A DNA stretch of 47,789 nucleotides from assembly GCA_025922875.1 (NCBI GenBank), contig JAICGZ010000010.1:1-47789 (forward strand), given 5' to 3'. The position numbers and the translations under genes are program-made. Positions 28,210 through 44,399 of the stretch are shown here, one piece after another. The notes beneath the pieces are model-generated. The model made no database searches. It had not been told where the DNA came from and worked only from the letters and a program-made list of their open reading frames with translations. This stretch comes from Pyrinomonadaceae bacterium (GTDB taxonomy: Bacteria; Acidobacteriota; Blastocatellia; Pyrinomonadales; Pyrinomonadaceae). Every line of letters starts with the position of its first letter. Position 1 is the stretch's first letter.

Positions 28210-28285
28210 TCGCGCAAAGGCGCAAAAACGGCAAAGACGCAAAGAAGAGTCACGATCTCCTTTGCGTCTTTGCGTCTTTGCGCGA
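28210..28285. repeat. CGCAAAGACGCAAAG palindromic hairpin
   Basis: Left arm TCGCGCAAAGGCGCAAAA... to GACGCAAAG (28210-28244) and right arm CTTTGCGTCTTTGCGTCTTT to GCGCGA (28260-28285) are reverse complements with small mismatches. The repeat sits 16 nt beyond the stop of the cytochrome fusion gene and may terminate its operon. A related shorter form occurs at 39941-39970. Confidence 0.75.
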
Positions 28286-28301: not shown

Positions 28302-29912
28302 TCAATCAACCGCCACCCACTCCGAACTCGCGGGGAAGAGTTTCTTTTCAGGATCGATCGTGACGACGTACGCGCCGAGAACGCCGATGCGACGATTCGG
28401 ACCGAAGGTGATCCTGGGCATCAGCCCTGTGTCGTATTCATAAAGACCTTCGAGAGTTGTAATCAGTCGCTCGCGGCTGAGGTCCTTGCCGCACAGTTCG
28501 AGCGCATGGACCAGTATTCGGGCGGCGGCAATAGCTGACGCCTGCGCCGCCGCATGCGTTGAGTCAATCTTGTTTCTTTGCAGTAAGGCGCTGTATTCAG
28601 CAGCGCCGGCTGCGGAAACATCGGCCGGCACTGTCGGAAACGCCAGAAAGACCTTGTCTTTCATTTTTACTGTAACCGTTTCGGAGATATTTCTTCCGAC
28701 CAGCGAACCCAGCATGTACAACGAGGGCGTCCAACCAACCGTCTCAGCCTCCCTCAAAACTGCTGCTGCTTCAATACCGGAACCAAGAAAAAAGATCGTA
28801 TCGAATCCCTTCTGGTGAGACTCATTCACAAACTCAGTGGCGCTGAATCGATCACTCGCATAATAGATCGACGTTACGGAACTCCAGCGAAACTTCTTCA
28901 CTTGCGCTTCAATGGTCGCAGCGATACTTCGATTGAACTCGAGGTCGGGCGAAACGATCGCCACCCGCGACTTTGAAGCGTCAGCTTTCTTCGCGGCAAA
29001 AGTGGCCAGTGCGCGTCCCTGTTCTTTCAGACCCGAAAGCAAATAGAAAATGTAGCGATTAAGCGGCAAGTCTCTTTGCGGGAGCAAAGTGGAAGGACCG
29101 ACGAATGGAACTTCTTTTTCCTGAGTTAATGCAGCGGCTCCATCTTCAGCGCCTGCGGTGAGACCGCTGACAATCGCAAACACCTGATCGTCCTCTATCA
29201 GATGTTTCATGTTTGGAACTGTCGCTTTCGAATCGCCATACATGAGGCGCAGTTCGATCTTGCGGTTATAGATACCACCGCGACTATTGATCTCGGCAAA
29301 ATAAGCCTGCAACACATCGCCCATCGACTGGGCCAGCCCACTCAACGCAGCTTTTTCCGGAAGAACCGTGCCGAGCACAATGCTGGTATCGGTTACACCT
29401 GGATCAGTGTCTGTCTCGATCCGTTTCAGATAAGCGATCAGGTTCGCCATGTCCTCCTGCGGCATGCGGTAGGTCGGCATAGCGACAGCCAACTTGTTGC
29501 CCGCAGGATCAAATCCGGCTGTCATCAAACGCACGAAAGAAGCCTCTGTGAAAGGCGGGTGCTTGCGTCCGCCTTCGTCTGTGTGGCCGTAAGGCTTGGT
29601 CAGGAAGGACCAGCTCATATTACCGGCAGTAACGCCGCCCTCAGTTCTTCCTTCACCCCTGTTCCCGTGACAACCAGCGCACGTGAGAGTCGAAGCAGGT
29701 ACATCCACCTCGCCCATCATGGCGGTAATTTCCTGACCGGAAGCGCTCTCGCCTCGGAGATAGAAAGCCTTGCCACGCTTTTCCTGGAGCGTGAGTTCGC
29801 GACGTTGTGAACTCTGAACGGCGGCGGTCTGTGACTGAACTGTTGATGGTCCACTCCATACCAGACAGCCGGCGATCGCGATGAGACTTACTATTATTAA
29901 TCTCGTGATCAT
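28302..29912 (-). CDS. Cytochrome c fused to a periplasmic amino-acid-type binding domain
   Basis: A 536-residue exported protein (signal MITRLIIVSLIAIAG; a lipobox reading AGC at 14-16 is possible). Residues about 45-165 form a cytochrome c domain with CAGCH (Cys78, Cys81, His82) and Met145 or Met150 as probable sixth ligand. From 175 on it is a type 1 periplasmic binding protein like leucine/branched-chain amino-acid receptors (IVLGTVLPEKAALSGLAQSM, GGIYNRKIELRLMYGDS, ... AIVSGLTAGAEDG). The fusion suggests ligand recognition linked to electron transfer in the periplasm. It is the last gene of a four-gene operon beginning at 33312, with SCO chaperones and a propeller protein. No ABC permease is nearby. 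Confidence 0.85.
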   Translation of the reverse strand: MITRLIIVSLIAIAGCLVWSGPSTVQSQTAAVQSSQRRELTLQEKRGKAFYLRGESASGQEITAMMGEVDVPASTLTCAGCHGNRGEGRTEGGVTAGNMSWSFLTKPYGHTDEGGRKHPPFTEASFVRLMTAGFDPAGNKLAVAMPTYRMPQEDMANLIAYLKRIETDTDPGVTDTSIVLGTVLPEKAALSGLAQSMGDVLQAYFAEINSRGGIYNRKIELRLMYGDSKATVPNMKHLIEDDQVFAIVSGLTAGAEDGAAALTQEKEVPFVGPSTLLPQRDLPLNRYIFYLLSGLKEQGRALATFAAKKADASKSRVAIVSPDLEFNRSIAATIEAQVKKFRWSSVTSIYYASDRFSATEFVNESHQKGFDTIFFLGSGIEAAAVLREAETVGWTPSLYMLGSLVGRNISETVTVKMKDKVFLAFPTVPADVSAAGAAEYSALLQRNKIDSTHAAAQASAIAAARILVHALELCGKDLSRERLITTLEGLYEYDTGLMPRITFGPNRRIGVLGAYVVTIDPEKKLFPASSEWVAVD

Positions 29913-29958
29913 GGTAGCGATGACCTCCCGTCAAGCCGCCGCACTCCAGAGAGACGCA

Positions 29959-30573
29959 CTAGCGATCGTTTATTACGTCTTCGAGGATCTTTATTAACTC
30001 ATCAGCCTTTGCCAGGCCAAACGCTTTCTTCCAGAGTCCTTTAGGCTCATTGCCGATGATGAATATGCTCGTGTGCTCGCCTTTGGCTTCCACGTACTGG
30101 CCCAGCTTGTAAAGCGCCCAGTCAACGTTCTCTTTTTTACCGGTCAGAAACAGCCATCCTGGTCGAGCATGAAACCGGCGGCCATAATCTTTGAGTCGTG
30201 TCGGTGTATCTGTTTCCGGATCGACACTGATCGAAACGAGGAAAGCTTCTTTGCCTAACCGGTCGCCCAGTGCATCCTGCATTTTCTCGAAATTACGATT
30301 CATCGGCGGACAGATGCTCGTGCAGGTGGTGAAGAAGGTGTTGATAACGACGACTTTGTTTTTGAGCACGTCAGTGTAGAACCGCAGCTTCTGACCATCC
30401 TGATCGATCAGTTCCACGTCTGAAAAGTACCTCTCAGCAGGTGAACGCGTTGGACCATCATCAACTTTTGGCAACGAGGAAGGCTCGGTTGGTTTCGCCT
30501 TCTGCCCAGCCGATTGACCCAAAACCGTCACCGTCGAGAACACGATTAGTAGAATGGCGAGGTGCAACTTCAT
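29959..30573 (-). CDS. SCO1/SenC-family copper chaperone
   Basis: A 204-residue exported thioredoxin-fold protein with GAGGAGG before the ATG at 30573, which overlaps the previous stop (ATGA). The signal peptide is MKLHLAILLIVFSTVTVLG. Copper ligands are Cys84 and Cys88 (TTCTSICPP) and His167 (GEHTSIF). SCO proteins assemble copper centres of respiratory oxidases, or act as thiol-disulfide oxidoreductases. No cytochrome c oxidase is in the window, so the neighbouring multicopper oxidase is a plausible client. It forms an operon with a second, larger SCO gene. Confidence 0.92.
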   Translation of the reverse strand: MKLHLAILLIVFSTVTVLGQSAGQKAKPTEPSSLPKVDDGPTRSPAERYFSDVELIDQDGQKLRFYTDVLKNKVVVINTFFTTCTSICPPMNRNFEKMQDALGDRLGKEAFLVSISVDPETDTPTRLKDYGRRFHARPGWLFLTGKKENVDWALYKLGQYVEAKGEHTSIFIIGNEPKGLWKKAFGLAKADELIKILEDVINDR

Positions 30574-31382
30574 GGCTTGACCTCCTCGGCCGCGGATGAC
30601 TCTTCGACTCTTCCTGCTATCACGTTCTGAATCACACCGACAATTTGAGTTATCTTTGCGAGACCATAAGTACGTGTCCACACGCCCCTGGCATCATTGC
30701 CGATGATCATCGCCGGCGTGTGATCTTCTCGTTTTGACACCGCCGCGCCGAGCGCGTTCAACAACTTATCCATCTCCTGTTTTTCGCCCGTCACGAAGGT
30801 CCAACCTGGGCCGGCTTTGAACTTGGCGCCCCAGGCTTTCAAACGCTCCGGTGTGTCTGTCACTGGATCGACGCTGATGGAGATGAGGTGGACGTCTTTG
30901 CCCACCTTCTCGCCCATCTCTTTTTGCAGTCGTGCAAAGGTTGCGGCAAGCGGCGGGCAAATCGTGGTGCAGTTCGTAAAAATGAAGTTGATCGCTACCG
31001 TCTTGTCTTTGATGAGATCGCGGTAGAAGTGAAGTTCGTTGCCGTGCTGATCCAACACCTCGACGTCCGGGATCACCATCTTGTTGCGAGCAGTGGGTGG
31101 AGTTGCAACCTTCGGCCCAGTTGGTTCGGTGCGATTATCGGGCGAAAGCGTGCTCTCCGTTTTTGCGGGCCGGAGATCCATCTTACATTTCGGGCACCTG
31201 CCGGGTTTTGCCGATGTAACATCGGGATGCATCGGACAAACGTAAGTTGGCGCCTCTTTTTTGGCGGCCTTTTTCGCGTGAGAAGCCGGCGGTACTACAC
31301 TCGATTGCGCCTGGACTTCAAATCCGACTGTCATGATCACGGCTAGTATGAGAGCTTTGGAAAGATTTGGTTGTGTATACAT
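30570..31382 (-). CDS. SCO-family protein with N-terminal heavy-metal-binding domain
   Basis: A 270-residue exported protein (signal LSKALILAVIMTVGFEVQAQ). Residues 47-70 read YVCPMHPDVTSAKPGRCPKC followed by KMDL, a heavy-metal-binding domain often fused to copper or zinc proteins. The SCO domain follows with Cys138 and Cys142 (TNCTTICPP) and His221 (REDHTPA). The extra domain could bind copper before delivery. It begins 1 nt before the propeller gene stop and overlaps the smaller SCO gene by four bases, so the two act in one transcript. Confidence 0.9.
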   Translation of the reverse strand: MYTQPNLSKALILAVIMTVGFEVQAQSSVVPPASHAKKAAKKEAPTYVCPMHPDVTSAKPGRCPKCKMDLRPAKTESTLSPDNRTEPTGPKVATPPTARNKMVIPDVEVLDQHGNELHFYRDLIKDKTVAINFIFTNCTTICPPLAATFARLQKEMGEKVGKDVHLISISVDPVTDTPERLKAWGAKFKAGPGWTFVTGEKQEMDKLLNALGAAVSKREDHTPAMIIGNDARGVWTRTYGLAKITQIVGVIQNVIAGRVEESSAAEEVKP

Positions 31383-31383
31383 T

Positions 31384-33312
31384 TTATTTCACCTCAGATG
31401 AGTTTGCTTCTTCTTGGTCGGTTGCGTGTAGCATCAGGTAAGGCAGGTCTATGAAACGCACGCCCATCGATGACGATTCAACAAACAGCATGTAGAGGCC
31501 CGTTTGCGGTACGTTGATCTTGAGTTCGTAGACTCCGTCACCGACTGACTGCGCAATGTCCCGGCGTTGCCAAATACCCGGACTCAGGAACGTCAATACA
31601 CGCACATCTTTTAAGTCTGACTTAGGATTCCCCGTTGCAGTGTCGACGAGCTTGAAACGGAAGGTGAAATCCCGGCGAACTGCTAACGTCCTCTCCTTCA
31701 CCTGATGCTCGATGCTAAGAGCGATCGGTTGTTTCTCTTTGAGTGCAGGGTTCGCCTCAGCACCTATCTCAAAGCAATGTGAGACACGCGGAGAGTCATT
31801 TACGAAAGCGACATCGTAGCGGCCACTGGAGGGCAACTTGATCGTGGTGGAATAGATGCCCGGTTTGAGTTCCCGCAAGCTGCGATCGACGATGAGAACG
31901 GCGAGCGGCTCGCGACGATAATTCTGGAAGTTGCCCATCGGGGCCGCCATTCCCTCGCTGTAATAGTAAAGCACTTTATCAACCGGATTCGCCACGATAA
32001 CGGCGTTTCCTTCCGGCGCCAACACGATCGAATCCGCACGCACCGGAGCAGGACCGTTTCCAGGAGAGCCCTGGCCGCCCGGGAAGTCAGTGATGTCAAC
32101 CTCTTTACCGATGGTCCGAAGCCGCAGCATGTGCACGTTTTCCGTCTCGAGTGATCTCACGAAGGCAAACGTGTCACTGAACATAATTTGATCCGGGCTG
32201 CTGCCAACGTTTACTTCATGCAGCATGCGATTCGAGGCGGCGTCGAAGATGCTTACCAGGCTTTGTTTTGTGTTGAGTACGAATCCATGCCGGCCGGTTG
32301 GTGCGAATCGGATGGAACGCGCACCCGGCTTTGTTTTCATACGCGCCAGCACCTGATGGTTCTGCTGCTCGATAACCGTCACGGTACCGTCGACTTCGCT
32401 TGCGACGTACAGTGCTTTGCTCAAATCAGACTGGGCCATAGAGACAGGACCTGGACCAACTTTCACATCATTGATTTTTTCCAGTTTGCGAATGTCGATG
32501 ATCGAAACCGTTCCACCTTCACGATTCGAGACAAAGGCGAACCGGTTATCGTTGCTGATAACAATGTCGTGTTGACCGGCGCCGGTCGCAATCTTTGCAG
32601 CCACCTTCAAGTTGACCGGATCGATGATCGTCACCCCACCGTCCGTTTCATTGCCATCGTTTGTAACCCACACGTATTGCTGATCGGGCTGAATGGCGAT
32701 GCGAGCCGGCCTGGTTCCGACGTCGATGTAGTTGGTTACTTTCCAACTGCGCGTGTCGATTACCGCGACCTGGTTGACCAGCGGCAAGGTGACGAAGAGT
32801 TTTTCGCCGTCGCGAGTCAGAAGCCAATCTTCGCCAGGGCTCCTCATCATCACCAGAGTGAGCAGTTTGCTTCCGCCGTATCCCAACAACGGATCGATAA
32901 CGGAGATATCGGGGCTCTTGTTTAAGGCAAGCACGTAATAAGAATTCAGATCGACGTCCGGACGCGTGCGCAGGCTGCCGGTGAGATACGACTGAATTTT
33001 CTCGCGACACTGTGCGGGCTCGGTGGCTTTGTCGGCCGGGCGCAGGCTGATCCATGCTGAAAGACCCAGCCCTTTCACGGGAGTCCCGGTCGTCGTGTCT
33101 GTAACTTTGAACTTGACGCTGACGTCCTCTGCGGCCCTGATCGTGGTTGCCTTCGGGGCCAGAGGCTCGGCGGTGAATTCGATCGCAATGCCCTGCTCAA
33201 CTATTTTATGTGGTGGAGCGGGTGGCTTCGCTTCCTGAGCTTGCACCGCGACAGCGACGGCAAAAAGAAGCAGGCCGGCGAATAAAATGTTTCGGTGGGT
33301 GTGTAGTTTCAT
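31384..33312 (-). CDS. Exported YVTN-type beta-propeller protein with YtkA-like ends
   Basis: A 642-residue exported protein (signal MKLHTHRNILFAGLLLFAVAVAVQAQ) with GAGAGGAG upstream. After a YtkA/FixH-like immunoglobulin-type domain (IAIEFTAEPLA..., residues ~40-120) come about seven propeller blades (ISVIDPLLGYGG, VAVIDTRSWKVTNYIDVGTRPARIAI, GVTIIDPVNLKVAAKIATGAGQHDI, VSIIDIRKL... , VTVIEQQNHQVLA). The end has two further YtkA-like segments. Such propellers bind partner proteins or ligands in the periplasm. The 5' end is 205 nt from the multicopper oxidase stop, with a repeat between, so the two may belong to one transcript or be separately controlled. Confidence 0.85.
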   Translation of the reverse strand: MKLHTHRNILFAGLLLFAVAVAVQAQEAKPPAPPHKIVEQGIAIEFTAEPLAPKATTIRAAEDVSVKFKVTDTTTGTPVKGLGLSAWISLRPADKATEPAQCREKIQSYLTGSLRTRPDVDLNSYYVLALNKSPDISVIDPLLGYGGSKLLTLVMMRSPGEDWLLTRDGEKLFVTLPLVNQVAVIDTRSWKVTNYIDVGTRPARIAIQPDQQYVWVTNDGNETDGGVTIIDPVNLKVAAKIATGAGQHDIVISNDNRFAFVSNREGGTVSIIDIRKLEKINDVKVGPGPVSMAQSDLSKALYVASEVDGTVTVIEQQNHQVLARMKTKPGARSIRFAPTGRHGFVLNTKQSLVSIFDAASNRMLHEVNVGSSPDQIMFSDTFAFVRSLETENVHMLRLRTIGKEVDITDFPGGQGSPGNGPAPVRADSIVLAPEGNAVIVANPVDKVLYYYSEGMAAPMGNFQNYRREPLAVLIVDRSLRELKPGIYSTTIKLPSSGRYDVAFVNDSPRVSHCFEIGAEANPALKEKQPIALSIEHQVKERTLAVRRDFTFRFKLVDTATGNPKSDLKDVRVLTFLSPGIWQRRDIAQSVGDGVYELKINVPQTGLYMLFVESSSMGVRFIDLPYLMLHATDQEEANSSEVK

Positions 33313-33439
33313 GGTTGCACTCCTCTCGGTGATTGACCCGCCTAGTGCAACCTTTGTGCCCGCGCGAAATGTTGAGGAAGTGAGTGTTATCTCCTGAAAG
33401 ACTGGGGAAAATTACGGCGTGGTGCGAAAAATTTTTGGA

Positions 33440-33492
33440 CCACAAAAGCACAAAAAGCACATGTAACATGTGCTTTCTGTGCCTCGTTGTGG
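33440..33492. repeat. CACAAAG-family palindrome between oxidase and propeller genes
   Basis: CCACAAAAGCACAAAAAGCA with CATGT (33440-33464) pairs with ACATGTGCTTTCTGTGCCTC plus GTTGTGG (33466-33492) across almost no loop. The innermost 11 bp are perfect. It lies 24 nt beyond the multicopper oxidase stop codon at 33517 and may end or attenuate transcription into the propeller operon. Confidence 0.7.
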
Positions 33493-33516
33493 CCCGGTTT
33501 ATGGCCGGCCGCGGAG

Positions 33517-36500
33517 TTACGGCGCTACACGGAAGATACCCCAGATTCCGCCATCAAACATGAGCGACGTCTGTGTGCGATAGAGGTAGTCGCCGGTAAT
33601 TCGGCGTGCACCGCCTGCACCATTCACTGGTATCACTTCATAGTGTGACGACGGTCCAATTCCATACTGAGCACCCTTGAACTCTGACAGAGGATTGTTG
33701 CCAATCACCTTGGATCTATTGGTATAAGGCTCCTCCTGCCAGAAGTGTCCATGTAGATTTAGCACGTTATTGCGTGCGTGACCATTGGCATTCAGAACTC
33801 GGAACCTGACCTGCTGGCCAGCACGAGCTGTGAACACCGGCGTCTGCGGATCGCCTCCAACCTGTGCGTTGGTTAGCACGTTGGTGAAGTCGAAATTGTT
33901 CGTGTTCTCAAACGAAGTCTGCGGAGGATAATTCATCCGTTTCCAAAGCGGCTCAGTGCGATAGTTAATCGCTTTCTGCGCCGAATCTTCGTTGTCTTCT
34001 GCTCCGTCCGGGCCACCAAGGTTTGGTACCGGACTGCCGTCCGCGAACCTCATGTTGATGTCCGTTTGGAGTTGCATTACGAATTCACGGAACGACGTGC
34101 CGTCGGATTTGGTGACTGTCGCTTGCGCGCGTGATCCCGCGTCCTCAATCCACGTGGATCCCTGAGGTTCGATGATTAGCGAACCAATCGCACCTTTATT
34201 GCTGTGCTTGATTGGGTCGGACGAGATCAGATTGGTTGCGCCAAACTCGATCGGGGTCGCAATCCGCTGGGAGCCATTGATAACAACGTCACCCGCGTAC
34301 CACGTGTACCTTACGATGCCGCCTGGTCCAACCGTCTGATTTGGATTAAAGCCAACGTTCTTCCCATCACTGTTTGCTACGTTATAAGCAAGCAGTTGCG
34401 GGTGCAAACCAACGTGGTTTGACGGTCTCACTTGATTAGCATTGAAGTGGTAGAGCAGGTTTGGCATCGTGTTGAAGCCGTCGAGATCCGCCAGTACCTT
34501 CGGTAGCTTGTTAATCAAAGCGAAGTTGATGCATTCACCGGCCCTTGCACGGACCACGAGCGGTTCAATCGGTACCCCAGCCTTCACCTTGCCGTAGGAG
34601 TCAAGGTCCGAACTGCGGAAGTACATGATCGCCGTCGGATCGTTGAGCGCTCCACCGTTACCAGCGCGGCTGTTGTATACGAGTTTACCTCCCGGCAATG
34701 CTGAGGCATTGACCGCGGTAACGCTGATGGTTCTCTTTGGTGCGTTCAGCGGACAGATCGCGGTTGGATCGGGCTTGCCAGTTGCGAAGTCAGTGGGGAG
34801 TGCAGTGACGATGGTTTCGGTAGTACCACCGAAAAGGGCACCCTCATTGAGCTTCGTGATCATGTCAGGAGACATGTACTTCGTGTCAGTTGTAGTCTTG
34901 AAATCAGTACTGATCGAAGTATCTGTTTTGTCTTCGTAGTCGGTTGCACCATTGGGAAAGTTTGTGTCGATAGGGAACGACGAATCGTTGATCGAGACGT
35001 CTGCTGCTCCCTCGAGGTTGTTGGGCAGCGTTATCAGGTCTGCTTGTTTTCCAGCCCGGCCATTGTAGACTCGCATGATTCCCCAAACGCCATTCCACTG
35101 GCCGTCAACAGACGCGTTGTTCTGGTAGAGGTAATCGACAAAGGGACGATTGCCCAGGATCGATTCCTTGCCTGTCAGAAATTCAAAGTGTTCAGAAATT
35201 CCGGCTACTTGCGAGTTCCTGTAACCGGAGTTGTTGACTGCAAGCGGGTCTTGCGGCGTACCGGGTTGGTGCAGCCACTTGTGACCGTTAATAGTCAGGT
35301 TGTGTGTTTCTTCGTGTGCTCCCACAAGTATGCGAATTTGAACCCGGTCATTTTCGTAGGCTCTCAGGAGCGGCGTGAATGGATCGCCGGGTTTCACTCC
35401 CTTAGTCAGTGCAGGATAGAAAGTCGGCTGCACGTTGAAGTCCGGGTCAGCGCGTGTGATGTTCGATTTGTAAACCTTTGATAGATCACCGGCAGCACCG
35501 CTGGCCTGAGTGTTGGTCGCCGGATTCCGCACGCGCAAAGGCACGGGCTCATTCCGGTAATTAACGCTCATGGTACCCGGGTCGGCGGCTGAGACTGCTT
35601 CCGGACATGGAGCCGGAACTCCGCCAGGACAAACAAAGCCGTTCTCAACGATGAAGGGCAAGCCAACCTCGTCTTTGATCGGCGGATTGATCACGCCTTT
35701 TGGATCGGCGATCGGATTACCATTGCCGTCAACGCCGGCGCCGGCTACATACGCGAGCTGGTAATCGGCGAATTCAAAGAGAAACTCGCGATGACTCTGT
35801 GACGGATCTTTCTCGATGATGGCCGCCTGCCAGCTTGTTGGTCCACCGTCAACGAGCCGTGTTCCCATGACTGCGCCCGTTTCCGGATCCTTCCAGACGG
35901 ACCCTGTAGGTTCGATTACCAGACCGGCATAGAGACCGCCCTGCTGGTGAGTCGATGGTCCGAAGTGATCGTGCGTAAACACCGTGCGAAGCGTACGGTC
36001 TATCTTGTTGTTATTAAGAACATCGTCGGCAAACCAGCGCTGTACCGTGGTCTGCGCGCCGAGAGTACCGAAGAATGGGTGAGCTTTCGCTGTCGGACAC
36101 GTAAACGTCCCGTCGCGAATATCGCCCGAATCTGTTCCGATGCATCTATTCTGTTTGCGAATGGCGTGAATGCGTTCGATTACTTCGTCGGGACTGAAGG
36201 TTCCGTCTTCGTAATTGAAGCCATTGCCTGAGCCGTCTGACGAAGTGACGTCAAACTTCACCAGGTGAATGTGTTGTCCAATGATGTCTGTCGGCGTACG
36301 AACCTGAAAATCGTCCTGTTCATACACACCGGGGACCAGGTTCGTGTGGTAGAAGGTGATGCAATCGTTGCTATTCGCGCGGAAGAAGAAGGGTTCCGGC
36401 GGTTTCTTTCCATTGATTGTCGGATCCACATCCGCCCACAGTGAAAGAATACGAGATTGCGGGAAGTGCCAGCCCGCCTTGTTCAATTTGATATCAAGTT

Positions 36501-38610
36501 GGAACGCAGCAGCTTTGTACGTGCGCGGAGTTCCTGTTGGAGTTCCACTGCTGGTGATGCAGGGATCGGCAAAAGGAGCGCCGGGCTTGCGCGGCAGTCC
36601 ATTCAACACGAAATTTGCCGGCGTGCCATCAGGCTTGAAGCTCGCGTGCAAACGTTGCTCGTGATAGACCATTGCGGCCAGCTCTGAAGCCGTGCCGGTT
36701 TCAGCGATTTTCTGTGCAACGGCAGTTATTAACTCTTTGCTGAAGTCGAGACGGTTCTCAACGCTGACGAACGTTCCGCCTACGATGATGTGTCTCGGCA
36801 AACCACCATCATCGATCGTGTCGAGCGGTGGCTTTGGTGGACGATGGCCTGCGACTGCCGGAACAAAGAAAGGATAACCGGGTAAAGCAGCCGTCGGCAT
36901 CGGAGCCATTGCCAGGGTCGGCAGTGGCACTATCGCGGGCGTCGGTGTGCCCGCCACGATTTCACCATCGGGTAAAGCGCGAGAACCCGGCACGGGAACG
37001 CCATTGGCATCCAGTACTGTGCCCGCTTCAAATACATCGTGTGCGCGCCACAGTTCCCACATGCCTTGTGCAAAGTGGGGATAAAAGTGGCAGTGGAAGA
37101 TGGAATCGCCGACGGTTTGATTACGGTTGCCCGTGCCGCCGTGGGTAATTTCAGTGGTGAATGCGTAACCTGGTCCAAGGCTCTGACTGTCGAGGTACGT
37201 TGAATTATCGTCGTCAGGTGTTTGTAACCATTGATGCGCATGCAGGTGGTGAACGTGATGCTCCTTTGGTCCCGCGTGCACGACTCTCATCTTCACGGGA
37301 TCTCCGAGATAGCTGTGATGCACGTTGGAAGGATCATCGGGATACAAGACTTTCGTCGCCTTTCTTCCCTTGATCAAATTACCCAGCTTGTCGGTCGCAT
37401 TAGCCGGCACGTCAACTATCTGTGCCGGATCGCCAACCGTCCATGACGAAAGGAAGAACTCCTCAAACTTGCACTCGGTGCAGTTGGCCATGGGGCCGAC
37501 TCCAAGCCGGTTCGCGAGAATTTCTGCGCCCGCGCCGGCTACGCCGTAGTTAATGCCGAATCCGTCTTTCACGCTGTAAAGCGTGTGTTTGAGAACTGGA
37601 TCCTCGAACTGCGGAAACGACTGCACGGCTTTGATTTCATCGTGATAGATCACGGTGAATTCTCTAAACGGACGTTCGCGATCTGGTTCGGTTGGATTCA
37701 CCTTGAAGGTCCCGGCCGGAAAACGTCCTTTGTTTGGCCCAGTGATGATCGCGTTCAGGTCGGTGTGCACGATCGTGTCGCCGTTAAGCATCTTTATAAT
37801 CGGCTTACCGGCCCTGGGATGTCCTACGGGATACACTGCGTCGTAATTGATAATCGGCTGGCCGCCGGGGGTTGTGCCGGTTTTCGCCAGGGTCATGTCC
37901 TCTGCGGTTAGCTGCGAGCGATACCACTCCGCTCCTTTGGGCTCGACGTTGACGCTCCCGAATAAACCCTGGGCCAACGAGCCGCCATCACCTTCGCCGC
38001 CTGTCGTAGCTGCGGTGCTGTACATCAGGTTGTTGCCTTCACGCGTAGCGGTAAGGGTGTAAATAGTCGAACCGCCTGGAGCAACAAGGCTCGGCGGATT
38101 ATTTCCGACATTCGATCCGTCGGAAGCGGAACTGCCGACCCACTCCATCCCGATGACGTGTATGCCGGCGGTGCGAGTTGCCGGTTGATCGTGAATCGGA
38201 GAGGACGACAGGAGATTAGTAAAGGTAATTCTCAGACAGTCGCCGCTATTCATTCTTAAGGCAATGGGCCGCGGCCGCTTGTTGGAACGCAACTGTACGT
38301 TCCCGGCGACAAGGCCCTTTGCCGCATCGATCGGTACGATGTCCTGTTTGAGCGCGTAGATCATACCGCCCGGATTAACTGCCCCGAGGCGGTTGTACGT
38401 GATTACCTGATCGAGCGCGACCACATCAGCCTTTATTATCCGGCTACAGACTGCTGTGGGCGTTGGCGTCGGAAGAGGCTCGACAGTTATATCGTCAATT
38501 ATTGGAGTCTGTGCCTGTGAGCCGGCCGCCGTTAGCAGCAACACAAGCAATGAGAACAAGAGCAGAAAGGAGAGCTTCCTCCTTCCACGTATGTAATGTT
38601 CGTTTTCCAT
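33517..38610 (-). CDS. Giant multicopper oxidase-like protein with three two-cupredoxin modules
   Basis: 1697 residues from the ATG at 38610 (GGAGGAAAAG upstream), with a signal peptide (SFLLLFSLLVLLLTAAGSQA) for export. Three repeats of an N-type plus C-type cupredoxin pair are visible, with GDC, NDC and GEC starts near 122, 749 and 1358 and the REF segments near 315, 938 and 1507. Copper ligands: His452, His457, His459 (HVHHLHAH) and the complete HCHxxxHxxxxM (His506-Cys507-His508...His512...Met517) in module 1; His780/His782 (HIHLVKF) and His880/His882 (THDHFG) in module 2; module 3 keeps only LHGH (1620-1622). It resembles large bacterial Mn(II)-oxidase-type MCOs such as MnxG. The substrate is unknown. 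SCO chaperones are encoded downstream. Confidence 0.85.
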   Translation of the reverse strand: MENEHYIRGRRKLSFLLLFSLLVLLLTAAGSQAQTPIIDDITVEPLPTPTPTAVCSRIIKADVVALDQVITYNRLGAVNPGGMIYALKQDIVPIDAAKGLVAGNVQLRSNKRPRPIALRMNSGDCLRITFTNLLSSSPIHDQPATRTAGIHVIGMEWVGSSASDGSNVGNNPPSLVAPGGSTIYTLTATREGNNLMYSTAATTGGEGDGGSLAQGLFGSVNVEPKGAEWYRSQLTAEDMTLAKTGTTPGGQPIINYDAVYPVGHPRAGKPIIKMLNGDTIVHTDLNAIITGPNKGRFPAGTFKVNPTEPDRERPFREFTVIYHDEIKAVQSFPQFEDPVLKHTLYSVKDGFGINYGVAGAGAEILANRLGVGPMANCTECKFEEFFLSSWTVGDPAQIVDVPANATDKLGNLIKGRKATKVLYPDDPSNVHHSYLGDPVKMRVVHAGPKEHHVHHLHAHQWLQTPDDDNSTYLDSQSLGPGYAFTTEITHGGTGNRNQTVGDSIFHCHFYPHFAQGMWELWRAHDVFEAGTVLDANGVPVPGSRALPDGEIVAGTPTPAIVPLPTLAMAPMPTAALPGYPFFVPAVAGHRPPKPPLDTIDDGGLPRHIIVGGTFVSVENRLDFSKELITAVAQKIAETGTASELAAMVYHEQRLHASFKPDGTPANFVLNGLPRKPGAPFADPCITSSGTPTGTPRTYKAAAFQLDIKLNKAGWHFPQSRILSLWADVDPTINGKKPPEPFFFRANSNDCITFYHTNLVPGVYEQDDFQVRTPTDIIGQHIHLVKFDVTSSDGSGNGFNYEDGTFSPDEVIERIHAIRKQNRCIGTDSGDIRDGTFTCPTAKAHPFFGTLGAQTTVQRWFADDVLNNNKIDRTLRTVFTHDHFGPSTHQQGGLYAGLVIEPTGSVWKDPETGAVMGTRLVDGGPTSWQAAIIEKDPSQSHREFLFEFADYQLAYVAGAGVDGNGNPIADPKGVINPPIKDEVGLPFIVENGFVCPGGVPAPCPEAVSAADPGTMSVNYRNEPVPLRVRNPATNTQASGAAGDLSKVYKSNITRADPDFNVQPTFYPALTKGVKPGDPFTPLLRAYENDRVQIRILVGAHEETHNLTINGHKWLHQPGTPQDPLAVNNSGYRNSQVAGISEHFEFLTGKESILGNRPFVDYLYQNNASVDGQWNGVWGIMRVYNGRAGKQADLITLPNNLEGAADVSINDSSFPIDTNFPNGATDYEDKTDTSISTDFKTTTDTKYMSPDMITKLNEGALFGGTTETIVTALPTDFATGKPDPTAICPLNAPKRTISVTAVNASALPGGKLVYNSRAGNGGALNDPTAIMYFRSSDLDSYGKVKAGVPIEPLVVRARAGECINFALINKLPKVLADLDGFNTMPNLLYHFNANQVRPSNHVGLHPQLLAYNVANSDGKNVGFNPNQTVGPGGIVRYTWYAGDVVINGSQRIATPIEFGATNLISSDPIKHSNKGAIGSLIIEPQGSTWIEDAGSRAQATVTKSDGTSFREFVMQLQTDINMRFADGSPVPNLGGPDGAEDNEDSAQKAINYRTEPLWKRMNYPPQTSFENTNNFDFTNVLTNAQVGGDPQTPVFTARAGQQVRFRVLNANGHARNNVLNLHGHFWQEEPYTNRSKVIGNNPLSEFKGAQYGIGPSSHYEVIPVNGAGGARRITGDYLYRTQTSLMFDGGIWGIFRVAP

Positions 38611-38979
38611 CTTCTTTTCCTCCAGACGGGTTCGGTAAGACTCGGTAAGCTGGTGGGCCCTATGGTCCAACCGGCGTACGGTGAACCCGACATTTAATCC
38701 GAAGGTGCATGAGAAAGACTGAGCACCTGATAGACTGCTATTGCGAGGCTGCAAGCCACCTTGCAATTTTCGTACGCAGCGTTGGTTCAGCCGTTTGGCT
38801 CAGCCTTTCATCAGCAGTGAGATAAGAGCCATGTAAAAAAAAAAGCGGAAACCTCCACAGTTGGTGCGCGCTTTTACCCAATTCGAGTTCGCAAAGAATA
38901 GATTCGAGAAAAAATTCGCACAGCACGACGTTTGCTAGGTGTGGTCCAAACTCGGTGACGCCGATAAAGGAGATGGATC
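38611..38979. promoter_or_regulatory. Divergent regulatory region between the oxidase and SurA-like genes
   Basis: 369 nt without a gene. It holds an inverted repeat, TGCAAG-CCAC-CTTGCA (38750-38765), two TCGGTAAG copies 10 nt apart (38632-38649), and an A10 run at 38835-38844. No reliable -35/-10 pair could be picked. Shared control of the oxidase and the SurA-like protein is possible. Confidence 0.3.
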
Positions 38980-39936
38980 ATGAGGAAAGTGATAACTGCA
39001 ATTATTCTAACGATGGTTTCGTTGCCGGCAGTGGGCTTGGCGCAAACTCAAATAGCCGCCGAAGATTGCGCCTGCGAGTCGCAAGTTTTACCAGCCACGC
39101 TGGCGATCGTAAACGGCGTGACGATTGGCCCACGCGACCTTGAAAAGTCGATTGGTGACTCGATTCGCGAGTTACAACAGCAGGTTATCGAGGCACGCAA
39201 GCGAGAACTCGATCTGATAATTAATTCGAAGCTGCTTGCTGCTGAGGCTGCTAAACGTGGTCTTACTACGACAAAGCTGCTCGAAATAGAGGTGGTCGCC
39301 AAAGTAAAGACGCCCACTGAGGCTGAAGTCCAGGTGTTTTATGATCAAAACAAACCGCGAATCCGTGATGACTTCAGCGCCGCCAAAGAAAATATCGTCC
39401 GCTATCTGATAGAAGAGCGACAGCGCCTCGAGGCAAAGAAATTTGCCGATGGACTACGCGCCGCCAGTAAGACAATTGTTAAGGCTGCTCAAGTTGCGCC
39501 GCCACGGAATGAAGCAGAACGCGCTCAGGTGATGGCCACCGTTAACGGCACAAACATCACAGCCGGAGACGTAGAAGATTCACTCAAGCCGTTGATTTCT
39601 GCTGTTCAGGGGCGGATTTACAAACTGCGGAAGGACGAACTTGACCTAAACATCAACGACACACTCCTGATGCAGGAAGCGCAAAAGAGAAAGATAACCA
39701 CAACTGCGTTGCTTGACGTTGAAGTTAAGCCGAGGCAGGTGACAGAAGAGCAGGCGCGTGTGTTTTTTGAAGAGAATAAGGAGCGTGTGAGCGGAGACTT
39801 CGCGCAAACAAAAGACGCGATCGTCGGCTATCTGCAACAGACGGAACTGCGTATTGCAGAGCGTGCGTTTATGGAGAAACTGCGCAGCGCGGCTACGATT
39901 CAGGTATTTTTGGCAGCGCCGGAAAAAGGAAAGTAG
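38980..39936 (+). CDS. SurA N-terminal-like chaperone with tandem domains
   Basis: A 318-residue exported protein with AAGGAG upstream and a signal peptide (MRKVITAIILTMVSLPAVGLAQ). Two homologous ~130-residue domains follow: VNGVTIGPRDLEKSIGDSI... LDLIINSKLLAAEAAKRGLT and VNGTNITAGDVEDSLKPLIS... LDLNINDTLLMQEAQKRKIT. Each matches the N-terminal helical part of SurA/PpiD-type chaperones; no rotamase catalytic domain is seen. It is probably a periplasmic holdase. A CAC motif (EDCACES) lies just after the signal. It is divergent from the large multicopper oxidase, so it might assist its folding, but this is only context. Confidence 0.75.
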   Translation: MRKVITAIILTMVSLPAVGLAQTQIAAEDCACESQVLPATLAIVNGVTIGPRDLEKSIGDSIRELQQQVIEARKRELDLIINSKLLAAEAAKRGLTTTKLLEIEVVAKVKTPTEAEVQVFYDQNKPRIRDDFSAAKENIVRYLIEERQRLEAKKFADGLRAASKTIVKAAQVAPPRNEAERAQVMATVNGTNITAGDVEDSLKPLISAVQGRIYKLRKDELDLNINDTLLMQEAQKRKITTTALLDVEVKPRQVTEEQARVFFEENKERVSGDFAQTKDAIVGYLQQTELRIAERAFMEKLRSAATIQVFLAAPEKGK

Positions 39937-39971: not shown

Positions 39972-42900
39972 CTACGTGAGCGATTCGGGCGCAGGTTGAG
40001 TCTCAACCACAGGAGTCGTCTGCGTGCGGCGCGAACGGAAGAACGAACTTCGATCCAGAACCTTCTCCTGAAACTGCTCGAGATACAGGTAAATAACAGG
40101 AGTGATGTAGAGCGTAATAAACTGCGAAACCACTAGCCCACCAACAACAACCAACCCCAACGGACGGCGGGAAGATCCATCAGCGCCATAACCCAACGCG
40201 ATCGGAATAGCGCCGAAGACCGCCGCCAGCGTCGTCATCAGAATCGGCCGGAAGCGGTCCATGCTCGCATCGTGGATGGCCTTGTCCGCAGCCTCACCTG
40301 CCTCAACGCGGTGACGCGCAAAGTCGACGATCATGATTCCGTTCTTCTTCACGATACCCATCAACATAAACATGCCGACGAACGCGTAGAGCGACGCCTC
40401 TTCGCCAAACACCATCAGCGTCAACAGTCCGCCAACGAGCGCGGTTGGTAGAGTCGAAAGCACAGTCAGCGGATGGACGTAACTTTCGTAAAGGATCGCG
40501 AGGATCACGTACATCACAAACACAGCCAGCGCCATCAGTATCGTCAGACTCCTGACGGTATTGCTGAACGTCTGCGCCTCGCCTTGCAGCTCAGCGCGTA
40601 TGCCGGGCGGAACGATCTGCGCCGCCACCTGGTTGATGTGATTCGTTGCATCGCCAAGCGCTACACCCGGCTTGAGGTTGAAAAACAGAGTCATGCTGGT
40701 GAACTGGTTGAGGTGATTCACCACTTGTGGGCCAAGCACGGATTTCCACGTGACCAGTTCGCTAAGCGGCACAAGCTTACTGCCGTCATCTGACTTAATG
40801 TAGAGCAGCGAAAGATCTTCCGGCTTCTCGCGCACGGGATCGTCCATCTCTAAGATGACCTGATACTGGTCCTCGGGCTTTTTAATCAGGTAGAGATAGT
40901 TTTGCGAGTAAGCATTGCGCAACAAGGTGAGAATCCGCGCCTCGGAAACACCATACGTCTTCGCTTCATCGCGCTTGATATCGATGTTTAAGTTTGGCGT
41001 GTTGTTGTAGAAGTCAGACGAAACCGTCAAAAACCCGGGATACTCCATGAGCTTGGCCATGAGCTTCTGGCCAGTGTCGTAAACCTGGTTGGGGTCCGCG
41101 CCCGAAACTGTGAAGGCGTATTGACCCTGGTTCTGGTTTGTAACGCCGGTGCTGATCTCCAACACGGGAAGCGGCCGCAGGAAAGTCATGATACCGGGAA
41201 TGGTGTTGAGCTGGCCCATCATCTCCGCCGTCACTTCTGCAATCGGCTTTCGTTTCTCGGGTGGCCCGACGAACGTAAAGGTGATGCCCTGGTTCGATGC
41301 GAGAAACCCGGTAGCGCCAGTCATCGTGAAGTCGGTGATGACGTTTGGATTCTGGTGCAACATCTCGTCGACGCGATCCTGGTACTCGCTCATCTGTTTT
41401 GGTGACGAACCTTCCGCGGCGATAAAAGCGCCGAAGATCACGCCACTGTCTCCCGGCGGCAGAAATGCTTTTGGAACCAGTAAAAACAGCCAGATCGTAC
41501 CCGCCAAACAAATTGCCCAAATCACAGGCGAGACCCAACGATGACGCAGGAACCACCAGAGTGATCCGCCGTAGAACGCCAGGATCCGTTTCTCGATTCC
41601 TCCGATGACACGTTCCATCCACGTTTTGCGCGAACCCTCACCGCGCTCTTTCAGCAGTCGCGCGCACATCAACGGAGTAAGCGTCAGCGACACAAGACCG
41701 GATGCAAGGATCGCGATCACGATCGTGATGGCGAACTCACGGAAAATTCGTCCCACCAATCCGGTCATGAACACCAGCGGTATGAACACAGCCGCGAGTG
41801 AAATCGTCATCGACATGATCGTGAAGCTGATTTCCTTCGCGCTGTTGATCGCCGCCTGGAAGGGGTGCTCGCCGCGCTCCATGCGCCGCACGGTGTTCTC
41901 GAGAAAGACGATCGCGTCGTCCACCAGGAATCCGATCGCCAGCGTCAACGCCATCAACGAAAGGTTGTCGAGGCTGTAACCAATCAGGCGCATCGCGATG
42001 AACGTGATGAGCAACGACAACGGTAGTGCGACCACTGGAATAAGTGTGTCAGTCACCCGGCCGAGAAAAGCAAAGATCACGATCACTACCAGCACGAATG
42101 CGATGACCAGCGTCACCTGCACGTCGGCGACTGAGTGGACGATGCTCGCCGAACGATCGTAGATCGGCATGATCCGGATTGAGCCGGGCAACTCCGAACT
42201 GAGCGCCGGCATAATTCCGTAAATCGACTTCGATACTTCCACCGCATTGGCGCCGGCGCGTCGATTGACCGCCACGATCACAGTCGCCGTCGGTACTGAA
42301 AACCCGCGCACCCAGAACCGCATGTTTACGCGTTCGTCCTGGACCGACTCTTTGACGGTCGCGACGTCGCGAAGATACACCGGCGCATTGTTCGTGCCGC
42401 CGACGATCAAATTGCTGTATTGATCAGCGGTTTCGAGTTGACCCTGCGGCCGCAGAATCGCGGTTCGAGAGGGACTGTCCAACTGGCCCGCGCCCGTGTA
42501 GCTTGTGCCATTCTTAATCGCGGTGCTGAGGTCGTCTATCGAGATACCACGCGCCCACATCGCCGCCGGATCCGCTTTGATGCGGATCGCCGATTTCGTC
42601 CCGTACACGTTGACCTGCGATACGCCCGGCAGAATGCTGATTCGCTGGCCCACCTGCGTGCTCGCATAGTCGTACAACTGGCCCGGCGTGACCGAATCGC
42701 TGGTCATCGCGATGTACATGATCGGCTGATCGTTGGGGTTGGTCTTTGAATAAGTGGGCGGCGAGGGCAGGTCCGCCGGAAGACTGCCGGTCGCCTGCGA
42801 GATCGCAGTCTGGACGTCCGTCGCGGCGGCATCGATGTTCTTCTCGAGAGCGAACTGAAGCGTAAGCGTCGCTACCCCCTGAGTGCTCTGCGAAGTTACT

Positions 42901-43136
42901 ACTTCCAGTCCATTGATCTGCATGAACTGGCGCTCGAGGGGCGTGGCGATATTGTTGGCGATGGTGTCCGGACTGGCGCCGGGATAACCAACCATCACCT
43001 GGATTACTGGATAATCGACGGCGGGCAGATCGTTTACAGGGAGCTGAAAATAACTCATCACCCCGAAAAGGATCACTGAAAGAGTCAGCACCGCCGTCAT
43101 TACGGGCCGGCGTATGAATGGTTCTGAGAGATTCAT
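39972..43136 (-). CDS. RND-family multidrug efflux inner-membrane pump (MdtB/AcrB-like)
   Basis: A 1054-residue RND transporter, full length. It starts MNLSEPFIRRPVMTAVLTLSV, as in MdtB/MdtC-type pumps, with 12 predicted helices, the proton-relay Asp pair in LAIGFLVDDAIVFLENTVRR and the two large periplasmic loops. It exports drugs or metabolites using the proton gradient with a membrane-fusion protein and an outer-membrane channel. Its start immediately follows the adaptor stop (TAAATG). No TolC-like gene is in the window, so the channel must be encoded elsewhere. The substrate range is unknown. Confidence 0.93.
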   Translation of the reverse strand: MNLSEPFIRRPVMTAVLTLSVILFGVMSYFQLPVNDLPAVDYPVIQVMVGYPGASPDTIANNIATPLERQFMQINGLEVVTSQSTQGVATLTLQFALEKNIDAAATDVQTAISQATGSLPADLPSPPTYSKTNPNDQPIMYIAMTSDSVTPGQLYDYASTQVGQRISILPGVSQVNVYGTKSAIRIKADPAAMWARGISIDDLSTAIKNGTSYTGAGQLDSPSRTAILRPQGQLETADQYSNLIVGGTNNAPVYLRDVATVKESVQDERVNMRFWVRGFSVPTATVIVAVNRRAGANAVEVSKSIYGIMPALSSELPGSIRIMPIYDRSASIVHSVADVQVTLVIAFVLVVIVIFAFLGRVTDTLIPVVALPLSLLITFIAMRLIGYSLDNLSLMALTLAIGFLVDDAIVFLENTVRRMERGEHPFQAAINSAKEISFTIMSMTISLAAVFIPLVFMTGLVGRIFREFAITIVIAILASGLVSLTLTPLMCARLLKERGEGSRKTWMERVIGGIEKRILAFYGGSLWWFLRHRWVSPVIWAICLAGTIWLFLLVPKAFLPPGDSGVIFGAFIAAEGSSPKQMSEYQDRVDEMLHQNPNVITDFTMTGATGFLASNQGITFTFVGPPEKRKPIAEVTAEMMGQLNTIPGIMTFLRPLPVLEISTGVTNQNQGQYAFTVSGADPNQVYDTGQKLMAKLMEYPGFLTVSSDFYNNTPNLNIDIKRDEAKTYGVSEARILTLLRNAYSQNYLYLIKKPEDQYQVILEMDDPVREKPEDLSLLYIKSDDGSKLVPLSELVTWKSVLGPQVVNHLNQFTSMTLFFNLKPGVALGDATNHINQVAAQIVPPGIRAELQGEAQTFSNTVRSLTILMALAVFVMYVILAILYESYVHPLTVLSTLPTALVGGLLTLMVFGEEASLYAFVGMFMLMGIVKKNGIMIVDFARHRVEAGEAADKAIHDASMDRFRPILMTTLAAVFGAIPIALGYGADGSSRRPLGLVVVGGLVVSQFITLYITPVIYLYLEQFQEKVLDRSSFFRSRRTQTTPVVETQPAPESLT

Positions 43137-44399
43137 TTACTTCGACTCGCTTGCAGCCGTTGCTGGTTGTTGCTCGAGTACTTTGCCGCCGGGAGTAACG
43201 CCGAGTTGTCCATTCGTCACGACCTTTTCACCTGCCGCGACGCCTTTCTCCACCACGACCAGATCTCCCTGCCGTTGGCCCAGCGAGACTTGCCGCTGCT
43301 CGGCAGTGGAGTCAGGCTTGACGACGTAAACGTACGAACCGTTCGCTGACATCTGGGGAGCGGAAGCAGGAACCAGTACCGCGTTTTGCACTGTGCCCAG
43401 CAGCAGTCGGATGTTGACGAAACGACCGGGCCAGAAACGATGATCGGGATTCGGTAGTGTTGCCCGAAGCGTTACCTGACCAGTTTCCGCCTGCACTGCA
43501 TTGTCGATAAACGTCAAGCGTCCTGGAACTGTGCTCTCGGCGTTGTCCGGCAGACGCACTTCAGCCATCAGAGTGCCCGAGCGCATCTGCTCTTGCACCG
43601 CAGTCAAATGGTTTTGCGAGATGGTGAAATCCGCGTAGATCGGATCGAGTCGTTCGATCACCAGCAGAGCACCACTCGGAACCGAACCGTTGCTCATTTC
43701 CGAATTACCCGAAGTTCCGGGATTCACGACGTTGCCGACGTCTACAAGTCGCTGTCCCGCGCGTCCGTCAATCGGCGAGTGGATGTAGCAGTAACTGAGT
43801 TGGACCTTGGCGGTCTCAATCGCAGCGTTATCAACTCTGATGGTTTCATCTGCGCTGCGCACGGCGGCGCGTGCGGCTTCGCTATTGGCTTTAAGCGTAT
43901 CGTACTCTGCGCGCAGTTGTTGGTATTGCTCGCTCGGCACGACTCCCTGCTCGACGAGCGTGCTATATCGGTTTACCTGTGTCAGTCCCCATTGCTCGCG
44001 TGCCAGCTCGCGAGCCAAATTCGCCTCGGCCTGCTTCTTGGCCGCAACGTCTTTGGACAGGTTTGCCTGAGCTTGTTTGAGATTTGCCTCGAAGGGGCGG
44101 GGATCGATCGTAAAGAGGAGTTGACCCTTCCGCACGTTCGTGCCGTCAGTGAAATGGATCTTTTCGATGCGGCCCGAGACCTGGGGCTGAATGGCCACGA
44201 TTTCACGCGCGACGATCTTGCCGAGTGCGTCCATGTAATTCGAGACATCCTGAGACACTGCTGTGCTCACGACCACCGGTGCGGGCGGGCGCTCAAAATT
44301 CTGCTGGGCTTTATTTTCACAACCGGAGAGAGTGGCGCAGAGTCCACTCATTGCCAGGACAAGTCCCAGACGATAAGACAAGCTCTGCTTGAATTTCAT
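43137..44399 (-). CDS. RND periplasmic adaptor lipoprotein (membrane-fusion protein)
   Basis: A 420-residue membrane-fusion protein with AAGGAAA upstream. The signal MKFKQSLSYRLGLVLAMSGL runs to lipobox LSGC (Cys27), so it is a lipoprotein. Then come the lipoyl-like half (ALGKIVAREIVAIQPQVSGRIEKIHFTDG), a coiled-coil hairpin (QANLSKDVAAKKQAEANLARELAREQ), the second lipoyl half, a beta-barrel (LRATLPNPDHRFWPGRFVNIRLL) and the membrane-proximal domain. This is a standard adaptor in an MdtABC-type pump and the pump follows directly. A TATAAA-bearing palindrome (44426-44439) lies 27 nt upstream of the start and might be a repressor site. Confidence 0.92.
   Translation of the reverse strand: MKFKQSLSYRLGLVLAMSGLCATLSGCENKAQQNFERPPAPVVVSTAVSQDVSNYMDALGKIVAREIVAIQPQVSGRIEKIHFTDGTNVRKGQLLFTIDPRPFEANLKQAQANLSKDVAAKKQAEANLARELAREQWGLTQVNRYSTLVEQGVVPSEQYQQLRAEYDTLKANSEAARAAVRSADETIRVDNAAIETAKVQLSYCYIHSPIDGRAGQRLVDVGNVVNPGTSGNSEMSNGSVPSGALLVIERLDPIYADFTISQNHLTAVQEQMRSGTLMAEVRLPDNAESTVPGRLTFIDNAVQAETGQVTLRATLPNPDHRFWPGRFVNIRLLLGTVQNAVLVPASAPQMSANGSYVYVVKPDSTAEQRQVSLGQRQGDLVVVEKGVAAGEKVVTNGQLGVTPGGKVLEQQPATAASESK

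Follow-up and report, generated by a model that had tools for sequence, protein, structure and literature searches.

What process is served by a gene group in which a giant multicopper oxidase is joined by two copper chaperones, a beta-propeller protein, a cytochrome and a folding factor? This question was raised by contig JAICGZ010000010.1 of a Pyrinomonadaceae bacterium (Acidobacteriota; assembly GCA_025922875.1), of which we analyzed a stretch of 47,789 nucleotides (nt), hereafter the window, with the module lying within positions 28302-39936. The module is probably an mnxG-type Mn(II)-oxidation cluster, as judged from its sequence relationships. The cluster type is already known, and the window adds a further member rather than a new kind of system. 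Six genes, five on one strand and a SurA-like gene divergent from them, had been put forward in the original prediction, and both the list of open reading frames (ORFs) and Pfam/NCBIfam searches agreed with it. All spans are those of the listed ORFs unless a likelier start is given:

33517-38610, minus strand: MnxG-family giant multicopper oxidase, 1697 amino acids (aa) from the likely ATG start at 38610 (listed ORF 33517-38766; NF041487, PDB 9bxa)
31384-33312, minus strand: YVTN-type beta-propeller protein with a beta-rich segment on either flank (Pfam/NCBIfam, AlphaFold, Foldseek)
30570-31382, minus strand: HMBD-SCO copper chaperone with the HMBD N-terminal and CxxxC present (PF02630, 1.2e-18; PF19335, 3.7e-14)
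29959-30573, minus strand: second SCO chaperone, CxxxC present, likely ATG start at 30573 (listed ORF 29959-30681; PF02630, 2e-19)
28302-29912, minus strand: fusion of a monoheme cytochrome c with a Leu/Ile/Val-type periplasmic binding domain (PF00034 and PF13458)
38980-39936, plus strand: SurA-like periplasmic chaperone, divergent from the oxidase (PF13624)

The closest known arrangement is the putative mnxG operon of Pseudomonas putida GB-1, described as comprising mnxG, a YVTN propeller, two SCO genes, an ABC binding protein with a cytochrome c domain, and SurA (PMC11409713), with a similar operon described for Pseudomonas OF001 (PMC8218464). As far as these descriptions go, the window has the same six families as the Pseudomonas operon (GB-1; also MS-1, DSV-1 and OF001) and matches the oxidase-propeller-SCO-SCO-cytochrome order of GB-1 on a single strand, the comparison being one with published descriptions and the NCBIfam model rather than with the Pseudomonas MnxG sequence itself. 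Moreover, GB-1 mutants that retain only MnxG are reported to oxidize both Mn(II) and Mn(III) (PMC5906577). Given the same families and order, an MnxG-family oxidase and a conserved gene block, Mn(II) oxidation with the SCO proteins loading copper would be the best reading of the module. The earlier proposal of an extracytoplasmic copper-redox module was therefore well supported by what is described for GB-1, as was its guess of Mn(II) oxidation; in calling the substrate unknown it was overcautious, since the MnxG family includes a genetically shown Mn oxidase, and for its suggestion of electron export we found no support.

The two arrangements are not identical. In the window, SurA lies upstream of the oxidase and points away from it, whereas it is the last gene listed for GB-1; the window lacks an adjacent regulator, and its sigma-54-like site precedes the propeller gene instead of the oxidase. 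The HMBD on one SCO is a feature of the window, the GB-1 SCO proteins being taken from their description only. The mcoA operon of GB-1 resembles the window in that a large multicopper oxidase is followed by an SCO gene, but no propeller or cytochrome fusion is listed in what is described of it, and the likeness is one of description only.

Downstream of the oxidase the genes are tightly packed, those for the propeller, HMBD-SCO, SCO and cytochrome fusion being separated by gaps of 1 and 46 nt and by an ATGA overlap between the HMBD-SCO stop and the second SCO's likely start (ATG 30573). A gap of 204 nt separates the oxidase from the propeller gene. The oxidase ORF as listed begins at TTG; the likelier ATG at 38610 is preceded directly by GGAGG and leaves 369 nt to the SurA gene. 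Since the whole 6.8 Mb genome yielded only 15 SCO matches, two of which belong to the module, the grouping is not due to chance.

The oxidase had no Pfam match. It matched the MnxG model NF041487 with 1478.1 bits over three stretches (model positions 1-583, 692-785 and 818-1893) and the Bacillus-type MnxG chain in PDB 9bxa with an E value of 8.8e-115, such that sequence comparison places it in the MnxG multicopper oxidase family, with homology over most of its length. It is longer than Bacillus MnxG by about 470-520 aa. The Bacillus Mnx complex consists of MnxE, MnxF and MnxG; beside the window oxidase there was no room for small mnxE/mnxF-like genes in the 204-nt gap, and no ORF of at least 100 aa was found in the 369-nt upstream gap. 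In a Priestia plasmid locus (L166), by comparison, a pair of small genes precedes the oxidase, and our propeller, SCO and cytochrome models had no match.

In the numbering of the 1749-aa ORF, the copper motifs of the oxidase are HxxHxH (504/507/509), HCHxxxHxxxxM (558-569) and two HxH pairs (832/834 and 932/934). All 12 positions were identical in all 96 aligned oxidases, although the conservation of H558-C559 is partly by construction, one search pattern used in fetching relatives spanning them. The alignment comprised 89 oxidases of more than 1000 aa from loci, plasmids and gammaproteobacterial genomes, together with seven from the same or related genomes, shorter fragments being excluded; regular expressions with fixed spacing matched 80 to 85 of the 89, and we prefer the alignment count. 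We take the twelve positions, from general knowledge of multicopper oxidases, to be the type 1, 2 and 3 copper ligands, and the oxidase is accordingly predicted to have a complete ligand set, that is, a type 1 plus a trinuclear site. In the FastTree reconstruction, the window oxidase and that of a second cluster in the same genome (C32) were placed in sister groups of three within a mostly acidobacterial clade of 32 rows, while the oxidase of a third cluster (C35) was placed elsewhere. We also observed two MnxG-family oxidases in tandem in Methylobacter luteus (L131:6011-17023).

A profile search of genome contigs with the oxidase alignment returned 363 relatives, and we retained the 80 best as loci. 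Record titles assigned these to Acidobacteriota, Pseudomonadota, Nitrospirota, Myxococcota, Planctomycetota (including Jettenia), Chloroflexi, Gemmatimonadota, Desulfobacterales and two Methanoperedens archaea, many of them coming from metagenome-assembled genomes (MAGs) whose taxon labels may be wrong. Sixty-six of the loci extended 6 kb or more beyond the oxidase on its downstream side, and gene order was counted in these with models derived from the window and related sequences. The propeller was the first gene downstream on the same strand in 59 of the 66; SCO and the cytochrome fusion were present downstream on that strand in 45 and 41, respectively, and the strict propeller-SCO-cytochrome order was present in 37. 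Where at least 6 kb was available on both sides (n=47), propeller, SCO and fusion were found downstream in 45, 33 and 31 loci versus upstream in 1, 1 and 2, while SurA showed no bias (downstream 2, upstream 1). The original prediction had set conserved synteny against random placement in relatives, and the propeller, SCO and fusion proved to be placed non-randomly; for SurA, found downstream on the same strand in 4/66, the link to the oxidase outside close relatives is weak.

The loci also separated a constant part from a variable one. Fifteen of the 66 had oxidase plus propeller with no SCO match anywhere in the locus, and in 16 the propeller was the sole partner downstream. Among the latter, one (L116) carried SCO and fusion on the opposite strand and another (L128) had one weak fusion match; the other 14, two from Methanoperedens and one from Desulfobacterales, had neither SCO nor fusion in the locus. 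We checked these 16 and three more loci (L078, L109, L134) for heme proteins, and 15 of the 19 had no CxxCH-containing ORF of at least 90 aa in the sequence available, the remaining four having one or two. The constant core is thus oxidase plus propeller, Methanoperedens included.

Turning to the partners, the propeller protein is of the YVTN/Cytochrom_D1 type by Pfam and NCBIfam, with a C-terminal segment that is YtkA-like just below the Pfam cut-off. Its AlphaFold model (pLDDT 85) had the archaeal YVTN protein 1l0q and hydrazine synthase beta (5c2v) as top Foldseek matches. We do not claim NosZ-like catalysis, as the NosZ match had only about 10% identity and a TM of about 0.4. SurA-like proteins vary in composition: the window copy (SurA_N) lacks the DsbA-like thioredoxin domain carried by copies on contig C169 of the same genome and in G015, and fusions of the two also stand beside mnx-type genes at L060:2439-3971 and L045:1990-3471, which suggests disulfide handling during cluster assembly. 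A SurA copy 67.5% identical to that of the window was present in L048/L068, likewise divergent from an oxidase that is 85% identical, with a regulator gene in between.

Among the SCO proteins, CxxxC was retained in both window copies and in 88/89 SCO ORFs of more than 150 aa from the fetched loci. It is plausible that the pair loads copper into the oxidase, although the 15 loci with oxidase and propeller but no SCO match limit this reading. Assembly of a heme-copper oxidase was considered as another task for them and rejected, none being present among the window proteins scanned by Pfam, a scan that covered part of the ORFs. The earlier statement that no cytochrome oxidase lies nearby held to this extent; a cytochrome bd quinol oxidase (CydAB, subunits I and II) is nevertheless encoded at 12918-15267 on the minus strand, about 13 kb from the module. 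Cytochrome bd contains no copper. Elsewhere in the window, a vanadium chloroperoxidase-like protein is encoded at 15623-17371 on the plus strand (VCPO_N 1.9e-17; PAP2 match below cut-off), and a drug-type RND efflux permease with its adaptor adjoins the module at 39972-44399 on the minus strand.

The SCO pair, the HMBD and these neighboring pump genes (39972-44399) would also be compatible with a copper-stress system, in which a cuprous oxidase and copper chaperones act beside an efflux pump. The pump, however, was best described as a drug-type RND permease (RND_permease_2 at 1064.6 bits, below the 1250 cut-off, with MdtC/MdtB next) and reached only 386.8 bits for CusA/CzcA against a cut-off of 701. 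Moreover, the closest orthologous locus (L048) has an amidohydrolase and no pump beyond SurA. As the pump is of the drug type and has no counterpart next to the closest ortholog, we consider copper resistance highly improbable as the role of the module.

The cytochrome fusion was equally well preserved. CxxCH was retained in 52/55 fusion ORFs of more than 300 aa, those without it being in L127, L111 and L128 (the last two weak matches), and C78, C81, H82 and M145 were invariant across the 26 members chosen for alignment. In its structure model (pLDDT 87), the second domain matched binding-protein folds of the Leu/Ile/Val type. Mn oxidation is reported to be lost in P. putida mutants defective in cytochrome c biogenesis, a phenotype for which three hypotheses have been put forward (PMC9634551). 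The fusion readily suggests itself as a candidate for the cytochrome that has to be matured for Mn oxidation in Pseudomonas, a proposal that was not found in those portions of the literature that we searched.

The same conserved heme ligands and the same mutant phenotype would fit a further possibility, namely that Mn(II) oxidation is coupled to respiration, the fusion passing Mn-derived electrons to the respiratory chain so that energy is conserved. Yet the trinuclear site would already be an O2 sink, no multiheme CxxCH protein was present in the window, and the propeller-only arrangement downstream of the oxidase in 16/66 loci was accompanied by a strong fusion match elsewhere in the locus in L116 only. 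Such coupling therefore appears improbable.

Signals of transcription gave a less uniform picture. Four noncoding features are relevant here:

38611-38979, no strand assigned: oxidase/SurA intergenic region, without a sigma-54-like site (up to 2 mismatches) on the oxidase side and without the regulator gene of L068
33440-33490, minus strand: hairpin between the oxidase and propeller genes that may act as a partial terminator (z -6.4)
33346-33361, minus strand: sigma-54-like -24/-12 site with 1 mismatch, upstream of the propeller gene (pattern search; also in L055)
28225-28280, minus strand: terminator-like hairpin right after the cytochrome-fusion gene (18 pairs; z -7.4)

The hairpin in the oxidase-propeller gap has 19 contiguous predicted pairs, and the same gap in L055 contains one of different sequence, followed by T residues; terminator-like sites overall in the region were not above shuffles (10 versus 14.6). 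Independent regulation had been named in the original prediction as speaking against a common module, and on this the evidence is divided, the propeller gene having its own sigma-54-like site and a hairpin before it. Sigma-54-like sites, searched with an invariant GG/GC and at most 2 mismatches, preceded the oxidase in 22 of 84 regions in sense versus 4 in antisense orientation (shuffle mean 3.5, largest 7), and occurred in 9/53 oxidase-propeller gaps versus 1 (shuffle mean 1.4, largest 4), with independence overstated because close relatives are included. Over the entire window they were not above chance (18 found, 22 expected), and L043 had 6 versus 7 expected. The GB-1 promoters PmnxG and PmcoA are described as having predicted sigma-54 and IHF sites (PMC11930936).

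The window oxidase belongs to a clade of six rows, and in each of the other five (L063, L064, L068, L071 and C32) an MnxR-like regulator or homolog was located within 0.9 kb upstream on the same strand. At C32 a sigma-54 response regulator and a pair of histidine kinases stand before the oxidase, a set that looks like mnxS1/mnxS2/mnxR. Such a regulator was not general beyond close relatives, being upstream in 6 and downstream in 1 of the 47 two-flank loci. The window sequence next to SurA and that next to the oxidase align with the two flanks of the regulator gene in L068; for the absence in the window, a true deletion and an assembly fault are both possible. A perfect palindrome, TGTCTCA-N3-TGAGACA, is present in the regulator-oxidase intergenic region of L063 (1872-1888) and L068 (7707-7723). 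It was rejected as an operator, exact copies being confined to these two loci (L048 is the same contig as L068) with 5 hits in total versus 4 in one shuffle, and it was absent from the window's genome at 1 mismatch. An Rfam search gave no match at the gathering threshold, and no tandem repeats were found.

The module is one of three MnxG-family clusters in its genome (6.8 Mb in 542 contigs, 93.5% complete, 4.9% contaminated), the other oxidases being 63% (C32) and 40% (C35) identical to that of the window. At C32, propeller and HMBD-SCO lie at one end of the contig, and C169 starts with SCO, cytochrome fusion and the SurA-DsbA fusion; these genes probably continue the C32 cluster. At C35 the order differs (HMBD-SCO, cytochrome fusion, propeller, SCO). 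Among the 39 genomes of the relatives search, its own included, 11 gave matches with an E value no higher than 0.001, a number of which were weak. One relative (L055) had 90% identity over a 413-aa oxidase end. An animal heme peroxidase of the MopA type gave no match in the window's own genome, though no control matched either.

Several observations weigh against Mn(II) oxidation as the function. The window oxidase falls below the 3100-bit equivalog cut-off of NF041487, which represents Pseudomonas-type MnxG, and no genome or homolog scanned reached it, the top whole-protein score among homologs being 2422.1 (L169). The mostly acidobacterial 32-row clade was sister (local SH-like support only, 88) to a clade of 26 rows that holds higher-scoring gammaproteobacterial sequences, including the three with the longest matches to the MnxG model (L169-L171), and we know of no tested Mn oxidase within the window oxidase's own clade. 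Neither a regulator gene nor a sigma-54-like site with up to 2 mismatches was found before the window oxidase. An HMBD-type motif was present in only 4 of the 89 SCO ORFs, such that the HMBD is a local feature. Finally, MnxG-family oxidases with full copper ligands were found in Methanoperedens (L086, L092), Desulfobacterales (L095) and Jettenia (L099), the first three with a propeller and with neither SCO nor cytochrome fusion found in the locus. Methanoperedens, Jettenia and Desulfobacterales are anaerobic lineages, and an O2-using oxidase in the first two needs explaining.

These points bear on a shift of substrate, by which an MnxG-family oxidase would have moved to Fe(II), Cu(I), a phenol or another small reductant with its partners unchanged. 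The distance from the MnxG equivalog and the full copper sites in anaerobic lineages would fit such a shift, and the three divergent copies in one genome could have divided substrates among them. On the other hand, the full partner set and its order are shared with a Mn oxidase operon, and no sequence sign of a new substrate was seen, in a comparison that did not extend to substrate-site residues. We therefore consider a changed substrate distinctly unlikely, and Mn(II) remains the preferred one.

If the module does oxidize Mn(II), its proteins would be exported, and HMBD-SCO and SCO would take up, reduce and insert copper. The SurA-like protein and the propeller may aid the folding of the very large oxidase, or the propeller may instead be a partner subunit or scaffold. 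MnxG would draw single electrons from Mn(II), then from Mn(III), at the type 1 site and pass them to O2 at the trinuclear site, with Mn(III/IV) oxide forming outside the cell. The cytochrome/binding-protein fusion would most likely be the electron partner, keeping copper or SCO reduced or sending electrons toward respiration, and regulation would probably run via an MnxR-like sigma-54 activator, partly in trans. A more speculative arrangement, which we regard as unlikely, is that the real unit is oxidase plus propeller, an ancient pair shared by bacteria and Methanoperedens, to which a two-SCO copper-loading and heme outfit was added; the heme protein of that outfit would then be the unnamed c-type cytochrome that is missing in the P. 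putida biogenesis mutants and so accounts for their defect in Mn oxidation.

The window would extend the mnxG-type cluster to soil-type Acidobacteriota, with three oxidase copies in one genome. One Blastocatellia MAG has been listed as a putative Mn oxidizer, moxA and mcoA being given as the top hits for this MAG and one other (PMC9224936). This is the only report of a putative Mn-oxidizing Blastocatellia MAG that we found, and no published description of an acidobacterial mnx cluster was found in a search that took in mostly papers outside subscription, which is weak evidence of absence. The gene order across phyla is the more useful outcome, in that it singles out the propeller as the partner most closely tied to MnxG and makes the fusion a concrete candidate for the cytochrome required in Pseudomonas, a question on which three hypotheses have been published (PMC9634551).

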